IMG/VR virus record: IMGVR_UViG_3300032288_004964
Coordinates: 62,001 to 126,000 of that record
Length of the DNA stretch: 64,000 bases
Direction: 5' to 3' (one strand)
DNA from: a virus
Shown here: positions 6,505 through 43,180 of the stretch, piece after piece
Layout: each line of letters starts with the position of its first letter
Position numbering within the stretch: the stretch's first letter is position 1
Translations under genes and position numbers: made by a program
The notes under the pieces: model-generated
The model's input: the letters and a program-made list of their open reading frames with translations, nothing else
Databases searched by the model: none
What the model was told of the DNA's origin: nothing

Positions 6505-9500
6505 ATGTCAAATCATAAAAATTTAATCTGGTACAATAAAGAAGGTGATTATTTAAATTTCCGATACAGTGATACAACTGACAGATTTGAGGGTAATATT
6601 CTTTTTCACGAAAATTCAACAGATACATTTAAAACATATGGTTTGTATATGTTCGAAAGGATACCTGCCTTTGAATATGAGGTTCCTGGTATTTTAACAT
6701 TAGCTAAATTTCAATTATTTAATGAATATGGTATGGATATTCATGGTGCTAAGTATGCTACTCAATCTGTTACATTAATAGAACCAGTTAATAATGATCC
6801 TGATTTCTTTTCAAAGTGGATATATGGTGTTAATTTTGAATCTAAGTTTCCTATTGGAACTCATATAGTTTTTGATACTCCTTTTTTAGAGTTTACCAAT
6901 TCTCAACAAACTTATATAGTTGTTGCTTCTAAGAAAAATGCTATTATGGTTATAAGTTTGATGGATAATCAAACATTTGAAACAACATTTTACACAACAT
7001 ATAGTGATCCAACTCAATATGGTAATATTTATATTTCTGGTTTAAATTTAATAGGTGTTTATAATTATATTGATAATTTTTATAATAATAATTTATCTAA
7101 TTGGAATGAGCCTAATTTTTATGATAAGTATACTAAAGGTAGAAGATTGAATATAGTAAATTCTACTAAGAATAAAAATGCTGATAATAGATTTACACAA
7201 AAAGTTGTAACTGTTGTTGATGATAATTTAACTGATACTATTTATTTTGAGTATGATTTACCTAGTGTATCTTTACCAACTAATACTGATTTAATTATAG
7301 AGCTTGTTACTAAAACTGATTTACCACTAATTTATACTGGTCCATTATCAATATCAACAAATTCTATTTCATTTGGAACATCTACGGTTCCTATAATATT
7401 AAAACCAGGTATAGTTTTTAAGATTAATGGATCTGTTAATAATACATCATTTTATACAGTAGATTCAATACTTAATTTTACATCTAACAATCAGTCTATA
7501 TACTATGCTACGCAATCTTTAGTTACCTACGATAATAGAATATATGAATGTATTCAGGCATATACTCAGAGTGGTGTATCTCCTGATATTAGTGAGTATT
7601 TTACAAATAAAGTAGGACTATCAACAGGATATGAAATAACTCCTGATAATACGGTATATTGGAAATTAGCAACATATATACCGGTATCAGAAACATTAGT
7701 TTCTGAGAATTTATTGTCTTCTCAAATTTATCTTGATAGTAATAAATTATATTTCACACAAGGATTTACTCAAAGTCAAGCAATAACATTAGCATCAGTA
7801 GCTGAGAACTATGCTGATCAATTTAAATTATTTAATGTTGATTTATATTATTCAGTTAATAAATTAAAAGCTGATTTAATGTATCCAACTAGATATGTAG
7901 ATGTTAATTATTATCATACACAAGTTGGTGCTACTTATAGTATAGGTAGTGGTTTTGTTATAAACTATGAAAGAGTTGTTAGAGTTGAGCAAGAGTTAGT
8001 CACTGAATTAAACTATGACATTTCTGAAAATTTTGATTATAATATAGTTTTCACTGATTTAGATGAGTATGGATTAATTATTAAGATTAATAAAATGGTT
8101 TATCAAGAAGAGATAGACTGGGTTTATTCTGGTATAGCTGTTGATATGGTTAGAACAATAGATAGAACACTTAGAAATTGGTTAACTAGAAATCATCCAA
8201 GATTAGTCACATTAGGTATATTTGCTACTTTACAATATATTGGATCTGGTTATTCAATCTTTTTTAATTCTATTAAATTAACTACTGAATATCCAAATGT
8301 TCCTATTGATTTCACTGTCCAAGTTGGTACAACTGCTGATTTTTATATAGAACACTCTAGAGTTTTATTTAATGAAATGGGTAGTTATTTAGGTGTTAAG
8401 ATAAACAATAGAGATTATAGTATAGGTGTTACTTATTCTACTTATCCAACTACTGTTGATATTCCAGGAACACTTCAATTATGGAGTGATGAATATTCTG
8501 ATACATTACAAGATTTTGGAATTTATACAACTATTATCAATAATATGATAAAGTTTGATGTTAAAGAACAGGATCAAAGATTAGAGTATGAATTTTCTAT
8601 AGGTAAGAGTACTTTACCTGGTCTTCCTGGCTATTCTATAATCAGAAAGATGAAAGGTAATGTAGGATTAATAATAACATCTAATCAAATACAACTTCCA
8701 GGTCCTACATATTCTTTAGAAGAAGCTGGATTTGCAACTGGTATGGTTGTTGCTATTAATAATACAATTCATCCATATAATAATCAAGAGTTTGTTGTTT
8801 TAGGATTAGATCCAGATAGAATAGATTTGAGTTATGAGGGTCCTTTCTGGGGATTGACAAATGATATTTGTAGTGTTTCCCCTTTTGTTAATATTGCGTT
8901 TAATCTTGGTTTTGGTGCTACTGGTTGTCCTACACCTGTTGGTCCTACTGGTGCTGGGGGCGGTCCATTTAATCAGTATCAATTTAGTAATTTAATGTTT
9001 AGTATCTCTTATAATCCTAATAGTTATATAATTAACACTTATAATCTAAGTTCATATCAGGGAACTTCTAATATGGTTGATATTACTTATGTTCAGTTAT
9101 CTAATTCCATTTATGCGTTGGGTGATGATATTACAGTAATGGATTCTTATTTTGCTGATTATTTAACTACTATTTCTCTACCGGGTAACACTCAAAGTTT
9201 ACATTTAAAGTTTAATAGTATTAATAATTATCTTTATTCATTATCTAAGAATATACTATATGTCATAGACCCATTATTGAATACCGTTATATCTACTATT
9301 ACTTTAGCAAATGATGCTTTTGGTATTGAGATAAACACATTTAATGGTGATATCTATATCTCATATCAAAATACAAATAGAATTGATATTTATAATTATT
9401 TAAATGTTCTTGTAACAACATTAACATCTGGTTTATCTTGGTCAACCGGTAAAACATATAATATGGCTTTTAATGAGTTTGAAAAAGACATGTATGTTAT

Positions 9501-36138: not shown

Positions 36139-36630
36139 ATGAGTAATATAACATCAAATAATTATTTAGACAACATAGTTGAACTAATTAAATCAATAGA
36201 TACTACTGAGTTAACAGACATAGTTGACCAAACTGCTATGTCAAAAGTAACAGAAGAGCAAAAAGTTTACTTTTGGATTAGACTTTATCTTAAAGATGAT
36301 AATATTAATGCTGAGATTGGAGATGATATTAGCATTAATTGGAAACAATCAGGTGAAAAATTAGTAACTAAGTTTATTTGTTATGGTAAAAAAGGATTAA
36401 ATAAAGATTACAATGATCAAGTAACAAATTATAATTCAGAAGATGATAAAAAATGCCTTTGTTTAATGATTGATACTAAAATGGTTAATTTTAATGATGA
36501 TATTCCTTTTATTAGATCTTTATTTAAAACCGGATATCACTATAAATATCAATTGGTGAAAAGAGAAGATTTACAATTTATTATTGACAAAAATGGAATG
36601 ATTTTAGATTACTTTGATTGTGATTTTTAA
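36139..36630 (+). CDS. Hypothetical protein downstream of thyA
   Basis: This 163-residue, acidic alpha/beta protein (TTELTDIVDQTAMSKVTEEQ) has no recognised motif. It is 8 nt after thyA and likely in the same operon. It overlaps the converging gene at 36627 by 4 nt. Confidence 0.45.
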   Translation: MSNITSNNYLDNIVELIKSIDTTELTDIVDQTAMSKVTEEQKVYFWIRLYLKDDNINAEIGDDISINWKQSGEKLVTKFICYGKKGLNKDYNDQVTNYNSEDDKKCLCLMIDTKMVNFNDDIPFIRSLFKTGYHYKYQLVKREDLQFIIDKNGMILDYFDCDF

Positions 36631-38234
36631 GAACAATCTGGGCAATCTACATTACCACTTCCATCACAAGAATAGCACTCAACCTGGCCTCTTTCATCAC
36701 AGTCAACACAACCTAATTCACCATCACCATCACAGTCTTCACATTTTATATAACCATCTTTACATTCGGTGCATTCAACTTTTCCACTAGCTGAACATTC
36801 ATCGCAATCAGTTTCATTTCCTTCTTCATCTTCGACATGACCAGTTCCGTCACAGTTAGAACAATCTATTTCACCTGAGGCATCACAATTAGTACACTCA
36901 TGTTGTCCTTCTCCAGAACATTCATCACATCTTGTATTTCCTCTGCCATCACATTCTATACAATCTACTTCTCCATCTCCTCCACAATCATGGCATTCTA
37001 TTCTACCACGACCACCACAATACTCACAAGAACCATTACCACCGTCAGTTTCTTCTAAATTATACTCATAACTTCCGTCATTATAATTTGATAATTTTCC
37101 TGTATTAGGATTATAATTTTTGAATGTATCCATATAAGGATAGTAATTATAATCATAACTTGGTAATTCAATTACTATTTCTTGCTCATCTACTGGTTTT
37201 CCATTTAGTAAAAACTTTGTAGCTTCATTACTATCTTGTCTTTCTTTATATAAGAATTCATTCTTAATTGCATATTCTTTGAATAATGTTTCATCTGCCG
37301 AATTATTAGTATAGATTCTGTCCATTATTTTTCTACCTAATTTATCAGTCCATAAAAGAGCTCTTCCTGTTATAGATGTTCCATCTTTTTTATTCATCAA
37401 AACAATCATTGAAACTTTTTCTGGATTTCTAACATAGATATCTAAGAATTTTTGACATTTTTTATGTCTCATACAAGAATTGCCTAATGTCCCATCCATA
37501 CTTTCATAATTTTCAGAAGAATAAAAATCTCTAATTTCTTCACCAGATACTATTTTAAATCTTAAGAAAGCTTCTTTTCTTATTTGTATTATTGATTTGT
37601 ATTTATTAACAAATTCTTCAAGATCTTTATCACTTACTTTCACACCTGCCTTATCCAATATTCTTCTTGCGAATCTACCTACTCCGATTTCACTTTTAAC
37701 TAAATTATCTGTTTGATAATCTAATCCTTGATCACCCATTATAATTTCACCATCACCATCACTATCAGTGTATTTAAAATGAACTACTCTAAGACCATTT
37801 GCATATGTATTTCTCCAGTATGATTTATTTGTGTTGCTTAAAGATGCCATCTCATCAGCTGTTAGTTCTTTTACAATTTGACCTATAGCTCCATTTAGTG
37901 GAATTCTAACATTCTTTATTTCATATTCTCCGTTTTTTTCTAAATTCTCAGATAAAGTATCATATGAAGTTCCTGGATTTATAACTTTTACTTTTAATGA
38001 TTTTAATTTATTCTCAGGTATAAATTTTATCATATCTTCTCTGTCTTTATCTATATCAATGTAATTCGTATTAACATCTACTTCCTTACCATTTAAAGAT
38101 AGTAGTTTACTGGATAAATCTGAATTGATATCATTAAGAACATTCATAAAGTCCTTAGTGTATTTAATATTGGCTTCTAAAAGTAGTTCTAATTTACTTT
38201 CATTTATAAAGTCAATGTATCTGTTAATTTTCAT
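36627..38234 (-). CDS. Putative head-targeted protein with GRAL-WTD domain and DnaJ-like zinc-finger tail
   Basis: The protein is 535 residues. The N-terminus MKINRYIDFINESKLELLLE is a near-ideal shared leader (I-N-E/S). The central region (about residues 170-410) includes IGVGRFARRILDKAG, LGNSCMRHKKCQKFLDIYV, GRALLWTDKLGRKIMDRIY and YPYMDTF. The same blocks occur in order in the protein at 43181-44506. The last about 130 residues hold about 12 C-x2-C-x-G/D-x-G repeats like the DnaJ zinc-finger domain (CEYCGGRG, CHDCGGDG and so on). A late-type motif lies 4 nt upstream. The role of the central domain is unknown. The Cys-rich tail could bind unfolded protein or nucleic acid. Confidence 0.6.
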   Translation of the reverse strand: MKINRYIDFINESKLELLLEANIKYTKDFMNVLNDINSDLSSKLLSLNGKEVDVNTNYIDIDKDREDMIKFIPENKLKSLKVKVINPGTSYDTLSENLEKNGEYEIKNVRIPLNGAIGQIVKELTADEMASLSNTNKSYWRNTYANGLRVVHFKYTDSDGDGEIIMGDQGLDYQTDNLVKSEIGVGRFARRILDKAGVKVSDKDLEEFVNKYKSIIQIRKEAFLRFKIVSGEEIRDFYSSENYESMDGTLGNSCMRHKKCQKFLDIYVRNPEKVSMIVLMNKKDGTSITGRALLWTDKLGRKIMDRIYTNNSADETLFKEYAIKNEFLYKERQDSNEATKFLLNGKPVDEQEIVIELPSYDYNYYPYMDTFKNYNPNTGKLSNYNDGSYEYNLEETDGGNGSCEYCGGRGRIECHDCGGDGEVDCIECDGRGNTRCDECSGEGQHECTNCDASGEIDCSNCDGTGHVEDEEGNETDCDECSASGKVECTECKDGYIKCEDCDGDGELGCVDCDERGQVECYSCDGSGNVDCPDCS

Positions 38235-38316: not shown

Positions 38317-40017
38317 ATGCTCGTAGAGACACAATATTTAAGTAATAGTAAGAAATTAGTAGTAAGTTATGTTGATAAATCCGGTGAAATCAAACTAAAA
38401 TACTACAATTGGGATAATCCAATGAAGTATATTTCTTGTGAGGATAATGATCCTCTAAAGCATCCTACATTTAGATCTTGGGATGGTAAGTCTGTTAAAC
38501 AAATAGAAGTTAGTCACCCAGATAGATACGCTATTTATGAGTTTTTAGATGACTTGCCTGAAGCAGAAAGAAATGAAATATTTGAATTTAATTTACCAAA
38601 AATATTTTTTATAGATATTGAAACTGAAATTGTTGATGGATTCCCAGAGGCGGCTGATGTTTTAGACCAACATGGTAATGTTACTAAAGAAGGAGCATCA
38701 ACTCAAGTTCTTTCTATATCAATTGTTTATGATGATAAAATCATTTTATTAGGTCTTAAGGATTTAAGTGAAGATGCTCAATTAAGAATAAAAAATAACA
38801 GTAACAAATACTTTGAAAAGTTTGGTGCTGATTATAAATTCAAATATATCAAGTATGATGATGAGTTTGATATGTTATATGCTTTCTTCTACAAGATGAT
38901 TCCAAAAATGCCTATACTAACCGGTTGGAACTTCCTTAAATATGACTGGTTATATTTAGTAAACCGTTCAAGAAAAATATCTAAGTGGACTAATGGTAAA
39001 GAATATAAAATTGATCCAGCAGTTTCTTCCCTAACAAAAAGATTAAATAAAATCTGGTCAACTGATTTTGAAGTTCCTGCCCATAGAATGATATTTGACT
39101 ACATGCAATTGTATGAAGTTTGTGATACTTCTATTAAAGTAAAGGAATCATCAGGGTTGGACTTTGTGGCTAGTAAATTAGTAGGCGTTGAGAAAGTTAA
39201 ATATGTTAACTCAATTTATAAATTGAAAGAAGACTCTACTATTAACGGGTATTCTTTTAAAGAAGGTGACATTTGTAGAACAGAAGGAGATACTTATTAT
39301 ATGTATGTTGGTACTGAGAGAGTAATATTTACAAAAGAAAACTTTTCAAAGCATAAAAGTCTTTTCAAAGAAGTAAATGTTTCTAACCTACAGAAGTTAT
39401 ATGAAGAAGATTTTGAAATCTATATGTACTATAACGCGGTTGACTCGGTTTTAGTTCAAAAGATTCATGATGCTCGTAATTACATTTCAATTATTTATGC
39501 GATTTCATCATTGGCTAAGATAAGAATTGTTGATGTTGTTTCTCAAATGAATAACGCTCTTGGTTCATTAGCTATTACAGAAGGAGTTTTAAGAAATAGA
39601 TTCCGTGAGATGGATAATATTGTTCTTTTCCGTGATGAAAAAGGAGATGCTGAATCAACTATCGCTGGTGGGTGGGTAAAGGATCCTGTTGTTGGTATGA
39701 ATCAGTGGTGTGTTTGTTATGACTTTGCGTCACTATATCCAACAACACAAAGACAATTCTTTATAGCACCTGAAACATTTGTCGGTGTTCAAGATGAGAA
39801 AGATAAATCTAAATGTTCAAATGGTAGACCAATTGATTTGGATAAACATGTTTTATGTGTTAATGGTGTTGTTTTTGAGAAAAGAGTATCACCAACTTTA
39901 ACTATGTTAGAGGATGTTTATGCTGATAGAAAGAAGGCTAAGAAAGTGATGATGGATAAAAAAGAAGAATTGAAATCTATTATAGATGAGATTAAACAGT
40001 TAGAAGCAGAATTATAA
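38317..40017 (+). CDS. Family B DNA polymerase, N-terminal part (gp43A-like, split gene)
   Basis: This 566-residue protein is truncated compared with T4 gp43 (898). It has the N-terminal domain, 3'-5' exonuclease motifs (Exo I FFIDIETE near residue 100, Exo II GWNFLKYDW, Exo III YNAVDSVL) and palm motif A YDFASLYPTTQRQF near residue 470. It ends in the fingers helix (YADRKKAKKVMMDKKEEL). Motif B (NSLYG) and motif C (DTDS) are absent. A gene on the other strand begins at once, so this is not a simple frameshift. The remaining palm and thumb must be encoded elsewhere, as in Aeromonas T4-like phages with split gene 43. Confidence 0.85.
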   Translation: MLVETQYLSNSKKLVVSYVDKSGEIKLKYYNWDNPMKYISCEDNDPLKHPTFRSWDGKSVKQIEVSHPDRYAIYEFLDDLPEAERNEIFEFNLPKIFFIDIETEIVDGFPEAADVLDQHGNVTKEGASTQVLSISIVYDDKIILLGLKDLSEDAQLRIKNNSNKYFEKFGADYKFKYIKYDDEFDMLYAFFYKMIPKMPILTGWNFLKYDWLYLVNRSRKISKWTNGKEYKIDPAVSSLTKRLNKIWSTDFEVPAHRMIFDYMQLYEVCDTSIKVKESSGLDFVASKLVGVEKVKYVNSIYKLKEDSTINGYSFKEGDICRTEGDTYYMYVGTERVIFTKENFSKHKSLFKEVNVSNLQKLYEEDFEIYMYYNAVDSVLVQKIHDARNYISIIYAISSLAKIRIVDVVSQMNNALGSLAITEGVLRNRFREMDNIVLFRDEKGDAESTIAGGWVKDPVVGMNQWCVCYDFASLYPTTQRQFFIAPETFVGVQDEKDKSKCSNGRPIDLDKHVLCVNGVVFEKRVSPTLTMLEDVYADRKKAKKVMMDKKEELKSIIDEIKQLEAEL

Positions 40018-40665
40018 TACTCTAATTGTCTTAAAATCTATATTTGGAAGTTTTTCTTTTACTACTCTTGTTGCTTTTGTTATGTATTTAGCATTATCAT
40101 CGTAGAAAATAGCTTTTTTGAATCCAGTTTCATTAAGTATTTCAACTATCTTCTCACCTTTCCAGTGTCCAGCATTTTTAGTATTATCAGGTATCATGTG
40201 TAATCCAAACTTAGGAGTTTCTAATCCAAATTCTTTTAGTTTGGATTCTATTTTACTTCTTAGACTTTCGGGTCTTGCTGTTACAATACATTTGTTTTTA
40301 ATTGACGAGTATAGATTAGATAATTCTTTAATGCTGGTAGGTAAACTTATATCAGATAAATGAAAAACATTAGGAGTTACTAAATAAACTCTTTTACCTT
40401 TTCTTACCCAGTTACCAAATTCTTTAATTTCATCTTTAGGGTCATTTACATATATTCTACCATTTTCCCATTTTAAGTCTCTTAAATTAACTCCTATTCT
40501 TCCTACAGATGTTTTAAGCATATCACCAATACTTAAATCTTCTTTTAGAAATTCAATAGCTAGCTCTTCAAAACTTGGGGAATTAACAAGCGTGTCATCA
40601 AAGTCAAAGATGTATAAGGTATCTTTGTTTTCTAAAAACTCATTAAATTTTTTAATCTTCATCAT
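40012..40665 (-). CDS. Putative head-targeted HAD-family phosphatase
   Basis: This 217-residue protein has N-terminal MMKIKKFNEFLENK, the shared leader, directly followed by HAD motif I YIFDFDDTLVNS (DxDxT). Motif II is CIVTARPES, motif III is around HWKGEKIVEI and motif IV is AIFYDDNAKY. The style (VTARP, then FYDDN) resembles HAD domains linked to nucleic-acid end repair. If the leader works as in T4, the enzyme would be packaged and injected. It converges on the polymerase gene with a 6-nt overlap. Confidence 0.6.
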   Translation of the reverse strand: MMKIKKFNEFLENKDTLYIFDFDDTLVNSPSFEELAIEFLKEDLSIGDMLKTSVGRIGVNLRDLKWENGRIYVNDPKDEIKEFGNWVRKGKRVYLVTPNVFHLSDISLPTSIKELSNLYSSIKNKCIVTARPESLRSKIESKLKEFGLETPKFGLHMIPDNTKNAGHWKGEKIVEILNETGFKKAIFYDDNAKYITKATRVVKEKLPNIDFKTIRVL

Positions 40666-43108: not shown

Positions 43109-43167
43109 ATCGGCTATATTATTTTTATAAAGTATATATAAATGTTTTATTTTCATTTTGTTGATTT

Positions 43168-43177
43168 TAATATATAC
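43168..43177 (+). promoter_or_regulatory. Late-type promoter motif TAATATATAC
   Basis: An exact copy ending 3 nt before the ATG at 43181. A divergent variant TTATATATACT lies on the minus strand at 43131-43141. Confidence 0.5.
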
Positions 43178-43180
43178 TTT

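Follow-up and report, generated by a model that had tools for sequence, protein, structure and literature searches.

The first of two predicted genes for a T4-like DNA polymerase in a viral contig, and putative bypass elements in the partner gene of its relatives

Comparison with described split polymerases

The described systems closest to the locus reported here are those of the Lak phages and of the cultured phages PAU, PTm1 and MA9V-1 (of Sphingomonas, Tenacibaculum and Chryseobacterium, respectively). In these phages the N-terminal half of a family-B DNA polymerase (PolB-N) stops, as here, before motif B, and a separate gene encodes the C-terminal half (PolB-C); the genes are gp105/gp110 in PAU, ORF135/ORF138 in MA9V-1 and ORF236 plus ORF239/241 in PTm1, the last with an intein-containing precursor. 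The MA9V-1 halves have been entered as two different polymerases (PMC10537231). Lak phages and the largest phage genomes form one clade with predicted Bacteroidetes hosts, and the word 'split' is absent from the text of the paper on this clade (PMC7162821). The T4-type polymerases of Aeromonas phages 25 and 44RR are also made as two polypeptides, 43A and 43B, and in phage 25 the pair purifies together and has activity (PMC2988022).

We analysed a window of 64,000 nucleotides from a viral record of 385,333 bases (G000). One gene in this window is, judged from its sequence, the N-terminal half of a T4/RB69-type family-B polymerase. Archaeal family-B polymerases can likewise be encoded by two distant genes (Methanothermobacter; Nanoarchaeum, with a split intein), although they belong to a different lineage and the clade of the window's phage has no intein at the break. 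The initial annotation of the window had compared the gene with the Aeromonas phages. At the sequence level this analogy holds in that a T4-type polymerase is carried on two polypeptides, but it is a loose one: between 43A and 43B lies either a seg homing gene or some short untranslated sequence (PMC2988022), whereas here the two genes are unlinked and nothing is left at the break, as the annotation had also stated and as is seen in the relatives. Lak, PAU, PTm1 and MA9V-1 are closer relatives than the Aeromonas split. They differ from the present case in spacing, with the halves about 2–4 kb apart in PAU, PTm1 and MA9V-1 and tens to hundreds of kilobases apart in the relatives of the window's phage. 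Splitting of a polymerase is a known phenomenon, of which the case described here is a dispersed and ancestral variant; the interruptions in the partner gene are the more surprising result. An active site shared by two unlinked genes, in the largest known phages and in their cultured Bacteroidetes-phage cousins, means that such a split can be stable in the long term; it also accounts for truncated or duplicate polymerases in the annotation of these phages.

The N-terminal half and its surroundings

The features of the locus are as follows.

38317–40017, + strand: PolB-N, N-terminal half of a family-B DNA polymerase (566 residues, ATG to stop), with the N-terminal domain, the 3'-5' exonuclease, the first palm segment (which includes motif A) and fingers helix 1; the stop is at the fingers tip
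38605–38631, + strand: Exo I region, FFIDIETEI (residues 97–105; from sequence)
38917–38949, + strand: Exo II region, LTGWNFLKYDW (residues 201–211; from sequence)
39430–39453, + strand: Exo III region, YNAVDSVL (residues 372–379; from sequence, aligned with YNIIDVYR of T4 gp43)
39718–39741, + strand: motif A, YDFASLYP (residues 468–475; aligned with FDLTSLYP of T4 gp43)
39892–40014, + strand: first fingers helix and natural C-terminus (...MMDKKEELKSIIDEIKQLEAEL; helix 526–565 in the model)
40012–40665, − strand: convergent downstream ORF (217 residues), overlapping the polymerase stop by 6 bases

PolB-N matches the Pfam family DNA_pol_B_exo1 (E = 7e-7) and the PHROG DNA polymerase families 262 and 2062 (E = 4e-57 and 1e-54), the match to phrog_2062 reaching position 497 of 502. 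Its match to Pfam DNA_pol_B (E = 1e-9) covers profile positions 18–155 of 453 only. The best solved relative is T4/RB69 gp43, by sequence (PDB) and by fold. An AlphaFold model built from a 23-sequence alignment is of moderate quality (pLDDT 63) and ends in a 40-residue helix; RB69 gp43 was the top match in a structure search with this model. The set of exonuclease motifs is complete. In the same alignment Asp100 and Glu102 of Exo I, Thr202–Phe206 and Tyr209–Trp211 of Exo II (TGWNF and YDW) and Tyr468, Asp469, Phe470, Ser472, Tyr474 and Pro475 of motif A are invariant; motif A contains one of the aspartates that bind metal in the polymerase active site. The initial annotation had placed the end of the gene in the fingers after motif A, with an opposite-strand gene over its end, and both points hold: the stop lies 91 residues past motif A, at the fingers tip, and the overlapping gene is the convergent ORF listed above.

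An in-frame insertion of approximately 58 residues (residues 300–357; 39214–39387, + strand) precedes Exo III. It is limited to the window and loci L011, L012 and L045 and is modelled as a small β domain, with a pLDDT of about 80–89 over most of its length.

The convergent ORF has weak matches to polynucleotide-kinase-like and DUF2608 families (Pfam and PHROG) and is syntenic in LR745206 and LR756502, the closest named records, which are uncultured phages of 635 and 642 kb, respectively. Two large ORFs that are distant relatives of each other (36627–38234, − strand, and 43142–44506, + strand) flank the replication region. The former contains a long series of CxxCxGxG-type repeats resembling a DnaJ zinc finger and has no match in Pfam or PHROG.

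The separately encoded C-terminal half

The initial annotation had proposed a bipartite replicase with its second gene at a distant locus, to be sought in the rest of the genome. When all 385,333 bases of the record were searched with PF00136 and phrog_262, PolB-N was the sole match and no other PolB piece was found. The missing half was found in relatives: separate C-halves are present in LR756502, LR745206 and dozens of viral contigs. According to phrog_262 matches, the N- and C-halves lie at 232965–234323 (+) and 130625–131992 (−) in LR745206 and at 254087–255361 (+) and 120543–121892 (−) in LR756502, i.e. 101–132 kb apart on opposite strands. The annotation had also noted that no ORF of the window carries SLYG or DTDS. 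The absence is borne out by the search of the record, although SLYG was the wrong string, as the relatives have NGSYG together with YGDTDS or YADTDS.

PolB-C of the ~640 kb relatives comprises 474 residues and begins with a lysine-rich helix, the second fingers helix, directly after which comes motif B (NGSYG) ALKLVLNGSYGAF. The break therefore separates the two fingers helices. Motif C reads IYGDTDS (YGDTDS/YADTDS across the relatives). The match to PF00136 (E = 3e-21) starts at profile position 138, and that of the N-half stops at 155. AlphaFold gave a poor model of PolB-C alone (pLDDT 55).

The N-halves were collected from 40 loci (the window, the two phage records and viral contigs), one of which is cut by a contig end and several of which are near-copies. 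Every full-length N-half among them ends at the same helix. C-halves were found at 39 loci in one search and at 43 in another that overlaps with it; those of full length start with MTKEEKIKKIE...YYNALQLALKLVLNGSYG. Both halves are present on contigs 3300025770_000870, 3300023210_003077, 3300042261_002385, 3300027969_000042, 3300049793_000366 and 3300023174_000033, where the listed coordinates place them roughly 40–170 kb apart. At lower similarity the split is also found in LR756504, LR756501 (735 kb), LR756500 and the Lak phages, as well as in the cultured phages PAU, PTm1 and MA9V-1. Distances between N-halves and between C-halves are correlated across seven genomes (r = 0.75, Mantel 63/5000). 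The split is ancestral to this huge-phage clade, and the two genes encode an old and stable two-gene replicase rather than a product of decay. A TonB-dependent receptor-like protein is encoded near PolB-C in a ~635 kb phage (L049, 16723–18705).

Gene order between 11 and 102 kb of the window's record corresponds to that between 156 and 234 kb of LR745206, with internal inversions; this order, and the end of the LR745206 C-half near 132 kb, would place the partner gene about 13 kb past the left end of the record. A second viral contig, G011, is a reverse match to the record between about 6 and 38 kb, with 86–91% nucleotide identity over most of the alignment. It extends past the left end of the record and carries PolB-C at 67.8 kb, which is about 34 kb beyond. 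The partner gene of the window's phage is predicted to lie off the contig, about 13–34 kb past the left end. It is absent from the record because the record is a fragment; the UvsW-like helicase and the 396-residue ORF that flank PolB-C in LR756502 and LR745206 were not found in it either. Loss of PolB-C from the phage was considered and rejected on the basis of synteny with the relatives and G011. The segment from about 6 to 10.5 kb of the record (L090) is a long degenerate internal-repeat array with dozens of overlapping self-similar matches to G011.

In family-B polymerases such as RB69 gp43, motifs A and C provide the metal-binding aspartates and motif B binds the incoming nucleotide. With motif A in the N-half and motifs B and C in the C-half, neither half would polymerize alone. 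We propose that the two genes encode one T4-like replicative DNA polymerase whose chain is interrupted at the tip of the fingers, a hairpin of two helices. The exonuclease, fingers helix 1 and the aspartate of motif A would come from PolB-N, and fingers helix 2 including motif B, the aspartates of motif C and the thumb from the distantly encoded PolB-C. The enzyme would work solely as a non-covalent heterodimer joined through the palm and the fingers helices; both this mode of assembly and the activity are predictions from sequence. We assign a probability of about 0.93 to the reading that a single T4-like polymerase is encoded by two genes, of which the window carries the first, with an ancestral split and the partner beyond the left end of the record.

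Three other explanations were weighed. The lack of a second half on the window's own record would suit a truncated pseudogene, with a contiguous polymerase elsewhere doing the work. However, the catalytic motifs are intact and conserved, the end point is common to all full-length relatives and the C-halves are kept and conserved. A contiguous polymerase, which the initial annotation had named as the sign of a decayed copy, was sought in 11 records no shorter than 115 kb (G000, the two ~640 kb relatives and eight others) and was not found. Decay, already refuted for the relatives, is highly improbable for the window. A replicase of the Nanoarchaeum/PTm1 type, in which inteins at the break would ligate the halves after translation, deserves equally little credence. 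Motif C inteins are present in L078, L081–L084, L145 and Lak, and PTm1 is annotated with an intein-containing split polymerase, but no intein lies at the fingers break: a plain helix closes the N-half, and Met followed by a plain helix opens the C-half. Read-through or recoding of the stop at 40015 is the least credible of the three: stop codons are reassigned in some huge phages (Lak; PMC8346664), but motifs B and C are absent downstream in any frame, the convergent gene overlaps the stop, and the relatives end at the same residue with the rest encoded elsewhere, a position of PolB-C that already excludes recoding.

Inserts in motif B of the partner gene

T4 gene 60 contains a 50-nt gap with a 5' stem-loop and a connection to a homing endonuclease (PMC5009743, PMC11194080). 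A comparable feature was found in PolB-C of the relatives. Among the distinct C-half alleles of the close group, motif B is uninterrupted in 14 and interrupted in 24 by an insert of 38–48 nt, of any length modulo 3. The insert usually consists of a stop, then CCCCC, a stem-loop and GGGGG, then a short tail; the stop is within two codons of the take-off point in most alleles (exceptions L069 and L144). There are three insertion sites: before the Lys of KLVLNGSYG (site 1, n = 16), after the Tyr (site 2, n = 7) and after the Val (site 3, n = 1, L084). Take-off and landing codons are synonymous in all 16 site 1 alleles (CTT or CTG with CTA; GCT with GCA or GCT) and identical at site 3 (GTT/GTT). 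They are unmatched at site 2 (TAT or TAC versus AAC, AGC, GAC or TAA). The nearest relative found with the second half, G011, has in its motif B region the site 2 insert of L069. The loci with inserts are listed below.

L051–L053, L060, L061, L063, L066, L067, L069–L072, L074–L078, L081–L087
L139, L142–L144, L168, L169, L171, L191

The hairpin pattern was scanned for in 11 carrying or sister viral contigs, G000 and the two ~640 kb phages. Each carrying record has it a single time, within PolB, if two terminator-like hairpins in or beside gaps between convergent genes are set aside, and it was not found in the four scanned records without an insert on the record. A genome-wide repeat was rejected on the basis of this single intragenic copy, and sequencing error was rejected because distinct sequences occur across many independent assemblies. 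Eight carrying records contain no second PolB, by which the interrupted genes were rejected as pseudogenes beside a good copy. The insert has no Rfam match.

Several observations bear on whether the inserts are skipped. In interrupted site 1 alleles, the coding sequence upstream folds into a stem-loop that extends up to the take-off codon (−19.6 to −29.4 kcal/mol, compared with −3.6 to −14.5 kcal/mol in uninterrupted alleles). An outer helix pairs codons 11–13 with the last bases of the insert. Three site 1 helices show compensatory changes at a level reached by none of 500 shuffles and far above slid controls, in related sequences from which the structure was itself partly derived. Most site 2 alleles have a different stem-loop that ends at their own take-off point. 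From the insert to the next AUG, dN/dS is 0.07–0.10, compared with 0.05 in uninterrupted alleles. The insert alleles are dispersed over the protein tree, which forces at least 8–9 changes. Downstream of the insert, L059 (uninterrupted) and L061 (site 2) differ in amino acid at eight of 428 codons, and L067 (site 1) and L069 (site 2) at one of 436 residues; with sequences this close, the insert does not inactivate the gene.

Homing genes adjoin the second half in many relatives. In most carriers a divergent homing-endonuclease-like ORF starts about 70–80 nt upstream of the PolB-C start codon. An adjoining homing endonuclease accompanies 15 of 24 interrupted genes (two as remnants) and none of 16 uninterrupted genes (Fisher p = 4e-5, kinship ignored).

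The RNA structure, the downstream selection, the scattered alleles, the lack of another copy, the homing ORF and the likeness to T4 gene 60 make translational bypass the likeliest reading of the inserts, and a probable one, followed by removal from the RNA and, last, by a third peptide. With the T4 gene 60 and mobA cassette, PolB-C of the relatives shares a gap of ~40–50 nt, a stop near take-off, a 5' stem-loop, an adjoining homing endonuclease and, often, synonymous take-off and landing codons. It differs in the gene concerned (motif B of a replicase), the hairpin, the three sites and the 24 alleles, and its bypass is putative. We lean towards a mobile cassette of homing endonuclease plus bypass element that targets PolB-C, leaving a ~40-nt hairpin gap at one of three sites in motif B which ribosomes would skip.

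Removal of the inserts from the RNA, or re-initiation that would split PolB into a third peptide, is the less likely alternative. Insert length and reading frame vary freely and the site 2 codons match poorly, both of which would suit it, bypass being itself a reading of the sequences. However, the inserts match no Rfam family, and no known splicing system works with gaps as short as about 40 nt. The conserved KLVLNGSYG codons, on which purifying selection acts, would be lost on re-initiation, since every AUG lies downstream of them. A further point against the alternative, and one shared with T4 gene 60, is that the upstream stem-loop extends to the take-off codon.

If translational bypass is correct, the carriers would make their sole polymerase from a pair of distant genes and would need programmed bypassing to express one of them. 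T4 gene 60-like bypass elements would then have their first family, with numerous natural alleles varying in gap and codons. T4 gene 60 would go from a near-singleton to a comparative system, with 24 gap alleles beside uninterrupted sisters, and the rules for take-off, landing and RNA structure would be open to direct test.

Motif C (DTDS) of PolB-C carries inteins in several huge phages, Lak and PTm1 (L078, L081–L084, L145, L152, L154 and L156); some of these inteins are split over two ORFs with a gene between. In L060 a phage-encoded translation initiation factor IF-3 (7518–7949) lies just upstream of the interrupted PolB-C.
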